Source: a virus. Taken from it: a stretch of 64,000 nt of DNA. The position numbers and the translations under genes were made by a program. Of the stretch, positions 4,089 to 62,055 are shown piece after piece. Numbering within the stretch: the first letter of the stretch is position 1; every line of letters starts with the position of its first letter. The stretch spans positions 62,001-126,000 of the IMG/VR virus record IMGVR_UViG_3300042566_000678. The stretch is one strand, 5' to 3'. The notes beneath the pieces are model-generated. The model did no database searches. It had not been told where the DNA came from and saw nothing but the letters and a program-made list of their open reading frames with translations.

Positions 4089-4376
4089 TTAACAATTAAC
4101 TCTGGCTTCAGAAGCCCAATCTTCATTAACTAAATACCAATACTTCTCTCTCATATGGATAATGTCGTAACCACCACCATTCTCCTCAATACTAACAATA
4201 CCTTTCTTAACCAAAGAACCTAACACACCACGAAGGACCTTTGTAGAGATTTCTAACTCCTTACTCAAATCATTCACATCCACATCGGAAAAGCCAGGTT
4301 CGGCATACAAACCACCAATAAAGGCAGTTAAGGTAAGTGATTCTAATTCCGTTAAATTCAATTCTAAATAGTTCAT
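4089..4376 (-). CDS. winged-helix DNA-binding protein (putative regulator)
   Basis: 95 residues from MNYLELNLTELESLT. Residues about 30-75 form a winged helix: helix DVNDLSKELEI, turn, recognition helix STKVLRGVLGSLVKKGIV, and a wing SIEENGGGYDIIH. This is the MarR/ArsR-type arrangement used by small transcription regulators. The start at 4376 is chosen because an in-frame ATG at 4406 lies almost at the transcription start predicted from the promoter at 4414-4444, and the leader box TTTAAACATAAAGATATG leads directly to 4376. It probably represses or activates phage early genes; the target is unknown. Confidence 0.7.
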   Translation of the reverse strand: MNYLELNLTELESLTLTAFIGGLYAEPGFSDVDVNDLSKELEISTKVLRGVLGSLVKKGIVSIEENGGGYDIIHMREKYWYLVNEDWASEARVNC

Positions 4377-4413
4377 ATCTTTATGTTTAAATTGTTTCTC
4401 TCTCAATGTTTAG

Positions 4414-4444
4414 TAAAGGTAAGTAAAATATCTTACAATGTCAA
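4414..4444 (-). promoter_or_regulatory. early-type promoter with upstream A-tract block
   Basis: -7 element TACCTTTA at 4414-4421, 20-base spacer, TTG at 4442-4444 within CTTGACATTGTAAGA. The upstream AATAATTAAGAAAAGAC block is shared with the copies at 4834, 5981, 55323 and 55644. Reads into 4089-4376. Confidence 0.8.
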
Positions 4445-4456
4445 GTCTTTTCTTAA

Positions 4457-4801
4457 TTATTTTAAAGGAAGTTCTAACCCTAATTGTAGTTCAAAGATGT
4501 GGTATTCGATTTCGGTAAGTGTCTTCTTACCACAATTACGTTGAGCCATTAATCTGGCTTGGGTTAGTTTAAGGAAATCACCGATAGTAACGATACCCAT
4601 TGCCTTAACAACCTGATATGCTCTAAACGATATATCCAAATCCGTAACTGGTGATAGGGGGTTAATTTCGATTTGGGTTAGGGATTCTACCTTCGCTGAA
4701 TGAATTGCTTCCTCTAACTGACGATTTAACTCCTTCATACGTTTGTTGTATTCGGATTGTAACTTTTGAATTTGATTGGAAATGGATTGTAGATTGTTCA
4801 T
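4457..4801 (-). CDS. RNA polymerase alpha C-terminal-domain protein
   Basis: 114 residues from MNNLQSISNQ (the in-frame ATG at 4864 lies inside the promoter and is rejected). Residues 1-40 are a predicted coiled coil; residues 52-114 match the helix-hairpin-helix fold of bacterial RNA polymerase alpha-CTD: DLDISFRAYQVVKAMGI, TIGDFLKLTQARLMAQ, then CGKKTLTEIEYHIFELQLGL. Arg60 aligns with E. coli alpha R265 and GKKT (91-94) with GKKS, the main DNA-contacting positions; Gln63 replaces N268. There is no alpha N-terminal domain, so it cannot replace alpha. It probably binds A/T-rich DNA, perhaps as a dimer through the coiled coil, and could recruit or compete with host polymerase at phage promoters. 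Confidence 0.85.
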   Translation of the reverse strand: MNNLQSISNQIQKLQSEYNKRMKELNRQLEEAIHSAKVESLTQIEINPLSPVTDLDISFRAYQVVKAMGIVTIGDFLKLTQARLMAQRNCGKKTLTEIEYHIFELQLGLELPLK

Positions 4802-4833
4802 ATTTTCGATGTTTATGTCTAACTGATGTTCTA

Positions 4834-4864
4834 TAAAGGTACGCAATAATAACCACAATGTCAA
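4834..4864 (-). promoter_or_regulatory. early-type promoter of the alpha-CTD gene
   Basis: -7 element TACCTTTA at 4834-4841, 20-base spacer, TTG at 4862-4864 in CTTGACATTGTGG, preceded by AATAATTAAGAAAAGA. A leader box GTTAGACATAAA follows before the start at 4801. Nearly identical to the promoter at 4414. Confidence 0.82.
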
Positions 4865-4894
4865 GTCTTTTCTTAATTATTTTTTCTTTTTGTC

Positions 4895-5155
4895 ATTTTT
4901 TTATACCTCCATATAGGATAGCAAAAAAGTAAATAGCGATAACCCTATTCAGACATACCCTTTGGGTATAATAGTATATTAAATAAGTCTAGCCCGAAAA
5001 CATGACCCCCGTATGAAAACGTACTCGGCTCGGGTCCGGCGGGTGCCTTTCGAGCGTGTTACGGGAAATGGAGAGTCTCCCTTAACGGTGAACGCCGGCG
5101 GCGCCGCCTCCACTCACCCACCGCACACACCCACGCTCTCATAGTTAGATGGTTA
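4895..5155 (-). ncRNA. GC-rich structured non-coding block, candidate ncRNA or 3' element
   Basis: No credible gene occupies 4865-5163. About 4985-5145 is strikingly GC-rich compared with the AT-rich flanks and holds several foldable segments: a GGCGGCGCCGCC palindrome near 5098-5109, GGAGA/TCTCC near 5070-5080, and a TACCC/GGGTA hairpin near 4958-4972. It lies 3' of the gene ending at 5164 and upstream of the promoter at 4834-4864, so it may be a 3' terminator-like RNA or an independent small RNA. Read on the minus strand it begins GAGAGCGTGGG, reminiscent of the G-rich 3' elements at 9.1 and 34.5 kb. Strand and ends are uncertain. Confidence 0.45.
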
Positions 5156-5163
5156 TCTAATTA

Positions 5164-5385
5164 TTAAATCTGCTTACGGATGGGACGTTCATACGCCTTT
5201 AAGGCTTGAGTAGCTATGTATTGATGTTCTCTGGCTGAACGTAGTGAGATTTCACATTGTTGTATTAGTGCTCCGTTCTTTTGGGATTGTGCTTGTAGAT
5301 ACATAACGATTATATCTTGTATATCTGTTTCTATTGCTTGTAGTCTACGTTGAAAGAAAGCTAGTGTCTGATTGTATGTACTCAT
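5164..5385 (-). CDS. hypothetical helical protein
   Basis: 73 residues, glutamine- and alanine-rich and probably all alpha-helical (FFQRRLQAIETDIQDIIVMYLQAQSQ...SLRSAREHQYIATQALKAYE), suggesting a two-helix hairpin or coiled coil. No membrane segment despite IIVMYL. Last gene before the GC-rich block. Function unknown. Confidence 0.65.
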   Translation of the reverse strand: MSTYNQTLAFFQRRLQAIETDIQDIIVMYLQAQSQKNGALIQQCEISLRSAREHQYIATQALKAYERPIRKQI

Positions 5386-5980: not shown

Positions 5981-6011
5981 TAAAGGTACGCAAAATATTT
6001 CACAATGTCAA
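5981..6011 (-). promoter_or_regulatory. early-type promoter with upstream A-tract block
   Basis: -7 element TACCTTTA at 5981-5988, 20-base spacer, TTG at 6009-6011 in CTTGACATTGTGAAATA, preceded by AATAATTTGGAAAAGA. Reads into 5681-5926. Confidence 0.8.
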
Positions 6012-6252
6012 GTCTTTTCCAAATTATTTTTAAAATAAATTAAAATTATTTCGTGAGCATATACACAGCATTCACACGTACTACCATACGGATGTAAAAA
6101 TATATCTTCAAAAAAAATTGTATTATTCTTATAAACTGATTTACATATGTAAACAACACGCGTGTGAATAGGTGGAATTGAGAGAATTTCTCGTACGCAC
6201 GAATGAAATGTGCGCTGAAATAATGCATAGGATTATTCCGTAATTAGTGATT

Positions 6253-24030: not shown

Positions 24031-25251
24031 TTACCAAACAATGTTTTCTTCATCATTAGCTTCAACCTTTTCTTCAAACAATGGTTTATCACCACTCTCA
24101 TCACGAAGATACTTTTGAACTAATTGTTTGATGTAAGTACGTTCTGAATCAATACCACCATCCGTAGAATAGAATGGGAAGATAGAGATTTCAGCGGCCT
24201 CAACCAAATTGAAACCATCATATAACAACCCAGCTAACTCCACACTAGCACGCGTAGATACTGCCGTACTCAATTTACCTGCTTCATTACGAATCTGGTC
24301 ACGAGTGTGAGCGGCGATTTCAGCAACTGCATTCAAGTCATAAGAATCAACGCCTGGATACAACATCGTAAGTAACTCCAACTCTTGCTCTTTATCAAGC
24401 ACATCAACCTCAATCGTAGTGAATCGGTCCATAATAGCCCGGTCAAGAACACGCGTTGATGTATATTCATTACCGATGTTAGCCGTTGCGATGAAAGTAA
24501 CCCCCTCTGCAACAGGAACGATTGGTGAACCTTCAGCCTCATCCAAACGTAAGTAACGTTGTCCCTGGTCTAACACACTCATTAAGATGTTCCATGCTTC
24601 TGGGTGAGCTCTACTCAACTCATCTAATAAGATAACTGCGTTAGGAGTTTTGATTGCCGTAACGAAAGCGGAATCAGAGAAGAAAGTACCCTTTTGTTTA
24701 TCAAAGTGAGTATTACCAATTAATGCTGCTCTCGGGTCCTGCGTTGCTCCCAAGTTAAAGTAATGGAAAGGTCTTCCTAATGCTTCAACCAATGCTTTAG
24801 CTGCCAACGTCTTACCCGAACCAGCAGGTCCAGTCATCATAATGTTACGAGCTCTAACTGCTGAACGGATTAAATATTTCCATTTCAAATCAGTCATAAT
24901 TAACGATTTCGGTTTTAATGCTACCGAACTATTTTGGATAAAATCCACAATAGCGTTGTGTTCTTTTGGAATCTCATTCGTAGGTTCTGCGTTGGTAGTG
25001 TTTAATGGTTTAACCAACTTATCATACTCTTTCATATCTACTAATCGGTAGGTTTTGTTACCCAATTTGTTAATGTGTCCTCGAACTGCTTTGTTAGTTC
25101 GTAGTGCCTTTGAGCGGGTGATTTGATTTAATTTAACGCCGGTTGTAACATCACCTTGTGTGTTCAACATTTGGATTCTACCATTAGATAATTTCTCTAA
25201 TTTGTAAATCTCATTAGTGTAACCGAACTCTGAATTTTTTAACTTTGTCAT
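24031..25251 (-). CDS. MoxR-type AAA+ ATPase
   Basis: 406 residues. After a 115-residue N-terminal region lie Walker A GPAGSGKT (141-148), Walker B VILLDE (206-211), sensor 1 ATAN (255-258) and arginine-finger segment RAIMDRF (271-277). MoxR-family ATPases act as chaperones that insert metals or remodel complexes and almost always pair with a von Willebrand A protein, here the adjacent 25370-27529. It has its own promoter (25306-25336) and leader box. Probable role: ATP-driven remodelling of a partner complex; target unknown. Confidence 0.9.
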   Translation of the reverse strand: MTKLKNSEFGYTNEIYKLEKLSNGRIQMLNTQGDVTTGVKLNQITRSKALRTNKAVRGHINKLGNKTYRLVDMKEYDKLVKPLNTTNAEPTNEIPKEHNAIVDFIQNSSVALKPKSLIMTDLKWKYLIRSAVRARNIMMTGPAGSGKTLAAKALVEALGRPFHYFNLGATQDPRAALIGNTHFDKQKGTFFSDSAFVTAIKTPNAVILLDELSRAHPEAWNILMSVLDQGQRYLRLDEAEGSPIVPVAEGVTFIATANIGNEYTSTRVLDRAIMDRFTTIEVDVLDKEQELELLTMLYPGVDSYDLNAVAEIAAHTRDQIRNEAGKLSTAVSTRASVELAGLLYDGFNLVEAAEISIFPFYSTDGGIDSERTYIKQLVQKYLRDESGDKPLFEEKVEANDEENIVW

Positions 25252-25305: not shown

Positions 25306-25336
25306 TAAAGATACGCAAAATAATTGATAATGTCAA
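25306..25336 (-). promoter_or_regulatory. early-type promoter of the AAA+ gene
   Basis: -7 element TATCTTTA at 25306-25313, 20-base spacer, TTG at 25334-25336 within CTTGACATTATCAA; leader box TTAAACATAAAA follows. Confidence 0.75.
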
Positions 25337-25369
25337 GGTAATTGCCAAATATTTTTGAACTTTTTTTCA

Positions 25370-27529
25370 TTATTTTTTAAGAAATAATTCGTTCAAAGTT
25401 TTGGTGATTGGAACTAAACCATTTACATCAATAAATTTAGCATCCTTACCATACATTTCAGAAAACACTTTCTTTGAACTTTCGTATGGTGTGTAATCAG
25501 ATACAAAGTAACTCAACACCCCAATACCACGTTGTTTGATTCTCTTAACCATTTCAGCGGTGTGCTTACTTGCTACCTGACGAGAATAGTTAATTGAATC
25601 ATTACCAAAGTTTGGTTCACCATCTGAAATGTTTAGGAAATAGGATTCCAAATCGTTAGATGATTCAACAAAGTGTTTCATAATTGCTTCGAAACACAAA
25701 CCTTCAGGTGTAGTACCATTTGGTTCTAATGCTGCTACCAATTGTTTAACCTTTGTAAACTTATCAGTACGAGAATCGTATGCAATAACCATATAAGGTT
25801 TACTATTATTCCAGCTTCCACCATCAATTGTTGAACGAACTGAAACCTGTACATCCAAGTTGTTTACCATCGTAGCTGCTTTACAGATAGCGATTGTAGT
25901 GGTCATTGCCTGTCTCCATCTATCACCTGCCATAGAGCCAGATGCATCTAATGAAATATGAAGAATGATTTTCTTAAATTTATCAACCTCTTTAGTGTAG
26001 AAAACGTTTTGGTAATCATAACCCAAAGCAGAAACCAATCGGCGGTCAATTCGTCCATTTAACTGACGATTGTAAACCGTATCACGTTCTTCACTACGAA
26101 CTTGCAATCTCTTACCCAATAAAGTTCCCAATGCTAATCCCTTTTGTAAGGTATTCTCATCAACAACCAACTCTTTAGTTCTCCAATCCTGTCTAGCCAA
26201 AGGAAATGCTTCGGATTTCATCAACTCTTCTGTCAACTTTTTAACCACTACCACCTGCGTTTGAGGAACTTTACCCACACCTTCGATAGTTTCACCAGCA
26301 ACATTCACCAATTCAGTACCCGATTTAGCAATCTGTTCTAATGCTTTATCATCTTTGTTAGTGATTGTTTTCTTTTTAGTTTCACCTTTTAAGAAATCTT
26401 GTTGTTTCTTAATTGCTTTCTCTAATTTCTTACGATTAGCTTCACTTAAACCAGCACCTTTATCAGAACCTTTACCTTCAGATTCTTTAACTTTAACCTT
26501 ACCTTTAAGTGGTTGGTTTAGAGAAGCAGATGGACCTGAATCAGAACCCGAATCACCATCTTCTGAATCATCAAACTCAACCTCTAAATCATCATCTTCT
26601 TCACCATCTTCACCCTGTCCGTTGCCAGAACCCTCACCTTTCTCTTGTGGTCCATCCTGCGCATCTTGCTTACCATTACCATTCTTTTCATCCTCCAGCT
26701 CATCAGCGATAGATTGAATGATAATCTCAACAATACCTTCTGCAATCTCAACTGATTGTTGAGTAGAGGTGATACGATTGATATTGTTTAAGTTTAACAA
26801 TTTAGAAATCTTACCTAAACCTCTCAACTTTGATAAGTTAGTGTTGGGGTTGGTGATATTGATAATACGGAACAAATAAGAATCAATTGTTTCCGTAGTA
26901 TATTCATTTGAAAGTAATCCTTTATCAATAGAAGCATCGTTGAAATATGTATCATATAAAGAACGATAGTAATCTCGGTAGCCAGGGCAGGTAGTGTAAA
27001 CGTGATTGTCAATACGTTTATCTTCTACATAGTTAGTTAAGTTCTTAACCAAATCCCAAATCCGTTGTTTAGCCCAATTTTGGTGAGATTGATTACCTCT
27101 ATCTACATTTTCAACCACATCTAAATACTTATCAACCAATGTAGGATTGGCTTTGTAATTAACAAAGGTTTCAAAATCAGTAAGAACAATGTGAGATGCT
27201 TCGTGCAATGCTAAACCAACCGTAGAATCAAACTTATCTGGCTTCAAATCAGAAGAGATAGTAACAGATTTACCATCGGTATAAGAATCACCTTTGACGG
27301 TAAAACGAACAGGAATGTTTCTGTTAGTAAGGATATTAACAAAGTTAGAAATGGCTCTACGATGAGCATTTAACTTTAAATAATGTAGGGTAGAGTTTTC
27401 AGTAGCAGTTCTGGTAGGAACATCTGAATCATCCAAATCATCCCAACCATAATCTAAATCGTAATCATTAGCCCAAAAAGAAGTGGCTGATTTGGTAGAT
27501 GTTTTACCTTTGAAGAAGTTGTTTATCAT
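25370..27529 (-). CDS. von Willebrand A-domain protein with HExxH metallopeptidase-like domain
   Basis: 719 residues, cytoplasmic. Residues 105-175 contain HEASH (109-113) with a downstream EDKR/ID segment, the layout of a zinc-metallopeptidase-like domain found in some vWA proteins. Residues about 290-385 are an acidic and Ser/Gly/Lys low-complexity linker. Residues 524-719 are a vWA domain with complete MIDAS: DASGS (528-532), TTPEG (about 608) and SDGEP (about 636). It is the usual partner of MoxR AAA+ ATPases such as the adjacent gene; cobaltochelatase CobT has a similar acidic linker and MIDAS. Possible function: a phage chelatase- or chaperone-like machine. Two tandem promoters precede it. 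Confidence 0.85.
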   Translation of the reverse strand: MINNFFKGKTSTKSATSFWANDYDLDYGWDDLDDSDVPTRTATENSTLHYLKLNAHRRAISNFVNILTNRNIPVRFTVKGDSYTDGKSVTISSDLKPDKFDSTVGLALHEASHIVLTDFETFVNYKANPTLVDKYLDVVENVDRGNQSHQNWAKQRIWDLVKNLTNYVEDKRIDNHVYTTCPGYRDYYRSLYDTYFNDASIDKGLLSNEYTTETIDSYLFRIINITNPNTNLSKLRGLGKISKLLNLNNINRITSTQQSVEIAEGIVEIIIQSIADELEDEKNGNGKQDAQDGPQEKGEGSGNGQGEDGEEDDDLEVEFDDSEDGDSGSDSGPSASLNQPLKGKVKVKESEGKGSDKGAGLSEANRKKLEKAIKKQQDFLKGETKKKTITNKDDKALEQIAKSGTELVNVAGETIEGVGKVPQTQVVVVKKLTEELMKSEAFPLARQDWRTKELVVDENTLQKGLALGTLLGKRLQVRSEERDTVYNRQLNGRIDRRLVSALGYDYQNVFYTKEVDKFKKIILHISLDASGSMAGDRWRQAMTTTIAICKAATMVNNLDVQVSVRSTIDGGSWNNSKPYMVIAYDSRTDKFTKVKQLVAALEPNGTTPEGLCFEAIMKHFVESSNDLESYFLNISDGEPNFGNDSINYSRQVASKHTAEMVKRIKQRGIGVLSYFVSDYTPYESSKKVFSEMYGKDAKFIDVNGLVPITKTLNELFLKK

Positions 27530-27658: not shown

Positions 27659-27689
27659 TAAAGATACGCAAAATATATGATAATGTCAA
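27659..27689 (-). promoter_or_regulatory. distal early-type promoter of the vWA gene
   Basis: -7 element TATCTTTA at 27659-27666, 20-base spacer, TTG at 27687-27689 in CTTGACATTATCATA, with TTAAGAAAAAG upstream. The 130 bases down to 27529 contain no gene. Confidence 0.75.
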
Positions 27690-27715
27690 GCTTTTTCTTA
27701 AATATATTTTTGGAC

Positions 27716-55322: not shown

Positions 55323-55353
55323 TAAAGGTACGCAAAATAAATGAGAAAGTCAA
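55323..55353 (-). promoter_or_regulatory. early-type promoter
   Basis: -7 element TACCTTTA at 55323-55330, 20-base spacer, TTG at 55351-55353 in CTTGACTTTCTCA, preceded by AAAAATATTTGAGAAAAGA. Confidence 0.78.
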
Positions 55354-55376
55354 GTCTTTTCTCAAATATTTTTTAA

Positions 55377-55643: not shown

Positions 55644-55674
55644 TAAAGGTACGCAATTTTTATCACAATGTCAA
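55644..55674 (-). promoter_or_regulatory. early-type promoter
   Basis: -7 element TACCTTTA at 55644-55651, 20-base spacer, TTG at 55672-55674 in CTTGACATTGTGATAAA, preceded by AATATTTTGGAAAAGA. Reads away from the only plus-strand gene. Confidence 0.82.
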
Positions 55675-55726
55675 GTCTTTTCCAAAATATTTTTTTGATA
55701 TATTTATATATACATTCGGGGGTTAT

Positions 55727-61254: not shown

Positions 61255-62055
61255 CTATGCACCCAATGCTTTACTGAACCCATCTGGACAAGTTCTAGTA
61301 CATACTAAAGATGCAACAACTGGTGCTACTGCAGCTCCGATTGCGATACCAACTCCAGCAGGCGTTGCCCATAATGCAGCTGAATCTAAACTATAATAGA
61401 TACAATTTGAACATACGTTTCTTAATAATTGTGGGTCAACATTTCCACCAACACCAGGTATTGCTAAAAACCCATCTGCCACTATATTTCCCATTGCCGT
61501 TGATACTGCCATTTTAGCTGCCATATCTGCAACATAAAGAACCGGCGTAGCCATCAATGATAATGTAGTTGAAGTTGCTGCTCCAGCAGGTTGTGCAGGT
61601 GTAAATGCTGCAACACAACCCATAGAGATTGCTGCCGTTAATCCTAATCTACAAGCATTTGCATCTGCCCAATTGTATGCAGATATTGCACCTGCTGCTA
61701 CAATTTCAACACCTGCTACGATTTGTTGTTCGGCTTGTTTAGATAATTGAACGAACTCATTTTGAGTTACATCAAATCCTACCTTTGCAAATTCTTCCGT
61801 AGTACTTGCTACTGTGTTGGCTGCACTTTCTACTCTGTGTGCTGTATCAGTTGCAAATGTTACTGAATAATTGTATGCATCTTCAACACTACCTATTGCG
61901 GTATTAACACCACCAATCATTGGTTGAATAACATTATCGTTAATTGCATTGCCAGCATCTACTACCGCATCTCCAATTGGTTTAATAACATTATCGTTAA
62001 TTGCATTTCCCGCATCTACAAATGCGTCTTCGATTGCTTTTCCTGCTCCACCCAT
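61255..62055 (-). CDS. Ala/Gly-rich protein with N-terminal tandem repeat
   Basis: 266 residues, no signal peptide. Residues about 7-45 consist of two copies of a 19-residue unit ending VDAGNAINDNVI(K/Q)P. Middle amphipathic helices (VESAANTVASTTEEFAKVGFDV). The C-terminal 130 residues are strongly hydrophobic and glycine/alanine-rich (TSTTLSLMATPVLYVADMAAKMAVSTAMGNIVADGFLAIPGVGG) with four paired cysteines (NVCSNC, CTRTCPDGF). This could insert in a membrane or be a pore-forming or injected virion protein. Function unknown. Confidence 0.55.
   Translation of the reverse strand: MGGAGKAIEDAFVDAGNAINDNVIKPIGDAVVDAGNAINDNVIQPMIGGVNTAIGSVEDAYNYSVTFATDTAHRVESAANTVASTTEEFAKVGFDVTQNEFVQLSKQAEQQIVAGVEIVAAGAISAYNWADANACRLGLTAAISMGCVAAFTPAQPAGAATSTTLSLMATPVLYVADMAAKMAVSTAMGNIVADGFLAIPGVGGNVDPQLLRNVCSNCIYYSLDSAALWATPAGVGIAIGAAVAPVVASLVCTRTCPDGFSKALGA
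61927..62019 (-). repeat. two 36-base direct repeats, 57-base period
   Basis: AATAACATTATCGTTAATTG-type units at 61927-61962 and 61984-62019 differ at two positions. They encode the duplicated 19-residue unit of the gene above. Confidence 0.8.

Follow-up and report, generated by a model that had tools for sequence, protein, structure and literature searches.

The window analyzed in this work, 64,000 nucleotides that run from base 62001 to base 126000 of a viral record of 148,235 bases, contains a gene slot that holds interchangeable, detached modules of RNA polymerase: in the present phage it is occupied by a C-terminal domain of the alpha subunit (alpha-CTD), which is exchanged for sigma region 4 (sigma4) in two sister phages. 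The phage was placed in the T4 superfamily by matches of its portal, terminase, head protease and family B DNA polymerase, its nearest named relatives being Microcystis phage Mel-JY01 and the Flavobacterium phages 'immuto' (47-50% protein identity). A Bacteroidetes host is indicated by promoters of the TAnnTTTG type, which is used by Flavobacterium sigmaA (PMC9723704). The record was compared mainly with a syntenic 195-kb phage, IMGVR_UViG_3300047476_000704, referred to below as the sister phage. Among the phage genes, 58689-61172 (-) encodes an 827-aa TonB-dependent-receptor-like outer membrane protein (CarbopepD_reg_2, Plug and OMP_b-brl_3 domains), only the start of which resembles the sister phage.

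A Detached Alpha-CTD Predicted from Sequence and Model

The protein is encoded by 4457..4801 on the minus strand (114 aa, ATG start at 4801); the end of the ORF 4457-4864 (-) at 4864 is an upstream TTG start in the same frame, and the 114-residue product proposed by the initial annotation is real. Its two parts are the following:

4505..4654, minus strand, alpha-CTD domain, residues 50-99, with R60, N89, G91, K93, T94 and E97 (Pfam PF03118, model, fold search and alignment)
4685..4798, minus strand, single long N-terminal helix, residues 2-39, a possible coiled coil or dimeriser (predicted model)

The Pfam family RNA_pol_A_CTD (PF03118) matched residues 50-99 with an E-value of 9.4e-13 and 48.1 bits, above the curated cut-off of 23.8 bits, and a PDB sequence search returned alpha-CTDs at E about 1e-7. 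In the AlphaFold2 model (pLDDT 86.7) helix 2-39 is followed by the alpha-CTD helices 59-67, 73-77, 81-86 and 92-108. The nearest solved folds found by Foldseek were alpha-CTDs, those of E. coli and B. subtilis, with an rmsd of 1.1-1.3 A across 56-58 positions and PDB 3n97 among the matches; in VIA-align, where PDB 1z3e (alpha-CTD with Spx) was among the structures compared, alpha-CTDs scored Z 10.2-8.8 and unrelated RAD51-type HhH domains about 8.5. The alpha-CTD identity, for which the initial annotation had proposed structure prediction as a check, is thus upheld by profile, PDB match and fold.

A profile search found no alpha-NTD in the protein, in agreement with the earlier description, and the model places residues 2-39 in one helix; consequently, assembly into the polymerase by way of an alpha-NTD is impossible. 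The coiled coil assigned to this part was not borne out, as only one long helix is predicted, in which the heptad test gave no significant pattern (p 0.12). On its own, an alpha-CTD has weak affinity for DNA except as a dimer, and the helix, as modelled, may act as a dimeriser. No second alpha-CTD was found in the 148-kb phage record. Judging from sequence and model, the product is a genuine alpha-CTD behind one long N-terminal helix.

In an alignment of 16 viral alpha-CTDs, R60, N89, K93 and E97 were invariant and G91 nearly so. We take these four invariant residues to be R265, N294, K298 and E302 of E. coli, all such correspondences being based on established knowledge of the E. coli protein. 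The GKKT motif is kept at residues 91-94, and the acidic pair D54/D56 is present, presumably equivalent to D259/E261, through which the E. coli domain touches sigma4. With respect to the E. coli contact set (R265, N268, G296, K298, S299, E302), R, G, K and E are retained, S is changed to T, and N268 to Q. The CTDs of Bacteroidota RpoA are 35-42% identical to the phage protein and have R265, K298 and E302 in common with it, whereas the phage protein lacks the NTD, bears the long helix instead, and has Q63-V64 at the positions of N268-C269, which are kept as N-C in eight Bacteroidota RpoA. The DNA-contact set, as aligned, is therefore largely, not fully, retained: the earlier statement that the main contact positions are present holds for R60 and GKKT and needs the caveat of Q63-V64, since the replacement of N268 by Q and of C269 by V may weaken DNA binding.

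Class-1 Promoters and Their UP Element

A matrix scan detected eight promoters of one class (class 1) in the 148-kb record, all of them at 60-73 bits, with the next site at 23 and shuffles under 5, the matrix having been built from the same eight sites that it scores. The four promoters named in the initial annotation (4414, 4834, 5981 and 55644) are exact, and four more were found: three in the window, at 25306, 27659 and 55323, and a fourth elsewhere in the record. In the window the class is represented as follows:

4834..4864, minus strand, class-1 promoter of the alpha-CTD gene, TTGACATT...TACCTTTA (matrix scan)
4865..4884, minus strand, UP-element block of the alpha-CTD gene promoter, 13/15 consensus positions
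4414..4464, minus strand, class-1 promoter of the next gene with its UP block, which overlaps the end of the alpha-CTD CDS
4089..4388, minus strand, this next gene with its own class-1 promoter, encoding a small protein of winged-helix-like type (DnaD_N match weak, E 6.9e-6, slightly short of the cut-off)
5981..6031, minus strand, class-1 promoter and UP block, UP 14/15
25306..25356, minus strand, class-1 promoter and UP block ahead of an AAA_5 ATPase gene, UP 12/15
27659..27709, minus strand, class-1 promoter and UP block, UP 14/15
55323..55373, minus strand, class-1 promoter and UP block, UP 14/15
55644..55694, minus strand, class-1 promoter and UP block, UP 15/15

The design consists of a near-perfect UP element abutting TTGAC, then TAnCTTTA. 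The E. coli UP consensus is reportedly AAAWWTWTTTTNNAAAANNN, in the form credited to Estrem, 1998. The 20 bases 5' of TTGAC matched this consensus at a mean of 13.6 of 15 positions over 21 promoters, with an identical offset in 21/21, compared with 8.7 +/- 1.6 for shuffled upstreams, 9.6-9.8 for a second promoter class and 6.8 for bases before any TTG. As these values lie far above those of shuffles and other promoters, and the subsite positions agree with PMC2613000, the A-tract block, which had been pointed out as lying where alpha-CTD would bind, is identified by its sequence as a UP element.

No class-1 promoter was detected by the matrix scan inside the structural-gene blocks, and class-1 genes are non-structural and probably early, their timing being deduced from promoter type and gene content. 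Many contigs have, after a class-1 promoter, a gene product with a start similar to that of the winged-helix-like neighbour (MN.SEL..). The ATPase gene mentioned in the list (24031-25251, minus strand) encodes an AAA_5 protein of MoxR/CobS-like type, and a class-1 promoter also precedes the gene (25370-27529, minus strand) of a 719-aa protein that matched VWA weakly.

Two other promoter types were observed. The second class, TTGGA/TAGGA-N18-TAnnTTTG, has no UP block and occurs at genome positions 58371, 61156, 64875, 102000 and others. The T4-late TATAAATA is absent 5' of the structural genes of the present phage; TATATTTATA occurs in 12 copies on the minus strand throughout the record, each 4-34 nt 5' of an ORF, structural ORFs included. 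Its copies, those in the window including genome 83665, 107051 and 112955 (window positions are obtained by subtracting 62000), are often conserved in the sister phage and likely constitute a T4-late-like promoter class.

Class-1 Promoters in Phages and Hosts

The initial annotation proposed that the protein favours the class-1 promoters. Such a special pairing is not supported by sequence comparison: the sister phage has 13 class-1 promoters with the same mean UP score as the present phage (13.6 in both), and no alpha-CTD was found in it, about 31 kb of the region lying beyond the end of its record. The promoters occur in many further viral contigs detected by pattern search, and an alpha-CTD was present in 0 of the 50 class-1-bearing contigs tested, six of which are 120-245 kb long. 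When compared with what the slot holds, the promoters showed no covariation, UP scores being equal. Matches of a stricter class-1 pattern in GTDB genomes belonged mainly to Bacteroidota, and a tRNA gene was located within 450 bp downstream in 15 of 116 of them, mostly within about 35 bp.

As the promoters are the same without a phage alpha-CTD and Bacteroidota share the design, the UP block is best explained as the place where, on early promoters like those of T4, the alpha-CTD of the host itself binds. Moreover, the alpha-CTD gene is itself behind a class-1 promoter, so that class-1 promoters must fire before the protein exists. The early promoters of T4 are likewise strong, carry UP elements and are served by the host polymerase, and ModA then cancels the alpha-CTD/UP contact (PMC2988021). 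By this analogy, the simplest reading is that these phages copy the strong promoters of the host, which would be read by the host alpha-CTD as in T4.

Exchange of the Alpha-CTD with Sigma Region 4 in One Slot

In the same slot, the sister phage encodes a 124-aa protein with Sigma70_r4 (E 5.6e-16), which also matched sigma4 of RpoD in the PDB and in which sigma region 2 is absent; no Sigma70_r4 match was obtained in the record of the present phage. Common to both slots are the class-1 promoter, a 23-nt identical leader, a flanking 73-aa gene and a GC-rich element:

5164..5385, minus strand, 73-aa gene that anchors the slot, with 62% identity to its counterpart in the sister phage
4940..5160, minus strand, GC-rich intergenic element 5' of the slot, conserved with the sister phage

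The GC-rich element stands out from an otherwise AT-rich genome by its strong conservation with the sister phage (GGAGACTCTCCATTTCCCGTAACACGC and more); it had no Rfam match and a fold z-score of -0.8, and is possibly an unknown structured RNA. In a 176-kb phage, an orthologue of the sigma4 protein (L158:1288-1665) is found behind a promoter of the same class, with a conserved neighbour on each side. In its -35 recognition helix, which is degenerate, TNTHISS stands in place of TRERVRQ; this suggests that the protein works by protein contacts. Two further phages (207 and 133 kb) have the slot neighbours, with neither alpha-CTD nor sigma4 between them. Two contigs had weak Sigma70_r4 matches that did not reach the cut-off (E about 0.005) and were disregarded. 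The MNNL start common to the alpha-CTD protein and one sigma4 protein has too few residues to argue that domains were swapped within a single gene.

Sigma70_r4 above cut-off was also carried by 5 of the 10 viral alpha-CTD proteins tested, which come from unrelated viral contigs. The exchange in the slot and the fusion in one protein functionally link sigma4 and alpha-CTD, and in PDB 3n97 the two are neighbours on UP/-35 DNA. One early-gene slot might be reserved in the phage group for detached modules by which the host polymerase recognizes promoters; these would replace one another and rewire UP/-35 contacts in trans without joining the enzyme. Such a takeover strategy would not have been described before; this generalization is speculative and we consider it rather unlikely.

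Relation to Known Systems

Standalone proteins annotated as 'RNA polymerase, alpha subunit, C-terminal' already exist in databases for uncultured Caudovirales phages, Mycobacterium phage Mithril and Rhodococcus phage Finch. They have the same fold without alpha-NTD and a size (98-240 aa; BFVD, IMG/VR) comparable to 114 aa, and are distant, with 17-36% identity (BFVD); unlike them, the present protein belongs to a T4-like phage and to a slot exchanged with sigma4. A single-sequence search found no relatives of the protein in viral contigs, which were found with an alignment of the alpha-CTD only. The tblastn matches in named phages were mostly RpoA of host-like records and the annotated RNA polymerase alpha subunit of Bacillus phage Goe8. 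Standalone alpha-CTDs are rare in Bacteroidota, as only 7 of 118 genomes had, apart from full-length RpoA, another match or a weak one. Literature searches found no published function of, or study on, a standalone phage alpha-CTD protein.

Detached sigma4-type modules like those of the sister phages are known, as minimal single-HTH sigma factors/gp33, from T4-like jumbo phages (group 2) that have no polymerase of their own (PMC7824862), whereas the slot of the present phage holds an alpha-CTD. T4 Alt and ModA act on the alpha-CTD/UP contact (PMC2988021), with ADP-ribosylation of Arg265; the present phage encodes an alpha-CTD instead. The new part is accordingly the alpha-CTD/sigma4 exchange in one slot.

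Possible Role of the Alpha-CTD Protein

We propose, with a probability of about 0.4, that the protein is an early modulator competing with the host alpha-CTD at UP/-35 and lowering UP-dependent transcription, the direction of the effect being a guess. In a T4-superfamily phage of Bacteroidetes, probably early, non-structural genes would be placed under promoters copying the strongest design of the host and read by the host holoenzyme with its own alpha-CTDs. One of these genes would yield the detached alpha-CTD on its long helix, which would bind UP subsites, and perhaps sigma4 via D54/D56, in competition with the host domain. This would reduce transcription of host stable-RNA genes and early promoters, that of its own gene included, an effect comparable to that of T4 ModA. 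Against such competition stand the changes of N268 to Q and C269 to V, the weak DNA binding expected of a free alpha-CTD that is not dimeric, and the lack of significance of the heptad pattern. The alternative mentioned in the initial annotation, blocking of UP-dependent host promoters, comes close to this reading.

The retained equivalents of D259/E261 and of R265, K298 and E302, the near-perfect UP elements of class-1 promoters, and the side-by-side arrangement of alpha-CTD and sigma4 in 3n97 would suit a co-activator, the first reading of the initial annotation, which, sitting on the UP block, would hold host sigma4 or polymerase via D54 and D56 and raise class-1 transcription late in the early phase. 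We regard this as doubtful and less probable than competition, because class-1 promoters are unchanged in phages without the protein, its own gene depends on one of them, and it has no tether to the polymerase. Slightly less probable again is an adaptor no longer acting on UP DNA and binding another protein instead, such as a host activator, an Spx-like factor or a phage factor, for example the winged-helix neighbour. The altered N268-C269 positions speak for it, as does the loss of recognition-helix residues in sigma4 of the 176-kb phage, by which slot modules need not read DNA; alpha-CTD is also a known docking surface, forming complexes with Spx (PDB 1z3e) or CAP. The conserved equivalents of R265, G296, K298 and E302 argue against it. 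Finally, the rarity of the domain (0/50 related contigs, none in the sister phage) and its 35-42% identity to the host RpoA CTD would fit a domain that was captured and plays no part in transcription, or a gene in decay, yet the ORF is intact, key residues and a strong promoter are retained, and another polymerase module takes its place in the same slot, which makes this reading improbable.

The promoters with UP elements defined here occur both in a group of T4-like phages of Bacteroidetes and in the hosts of these phages. Natural contrasts are offered by sister phages whose promoters are alike and whose slot holds either alpha-CTD or sigma4, and by the proteins in which both are fused; these make it directly testable whether phages retune host promoters by detached polymerase modules.
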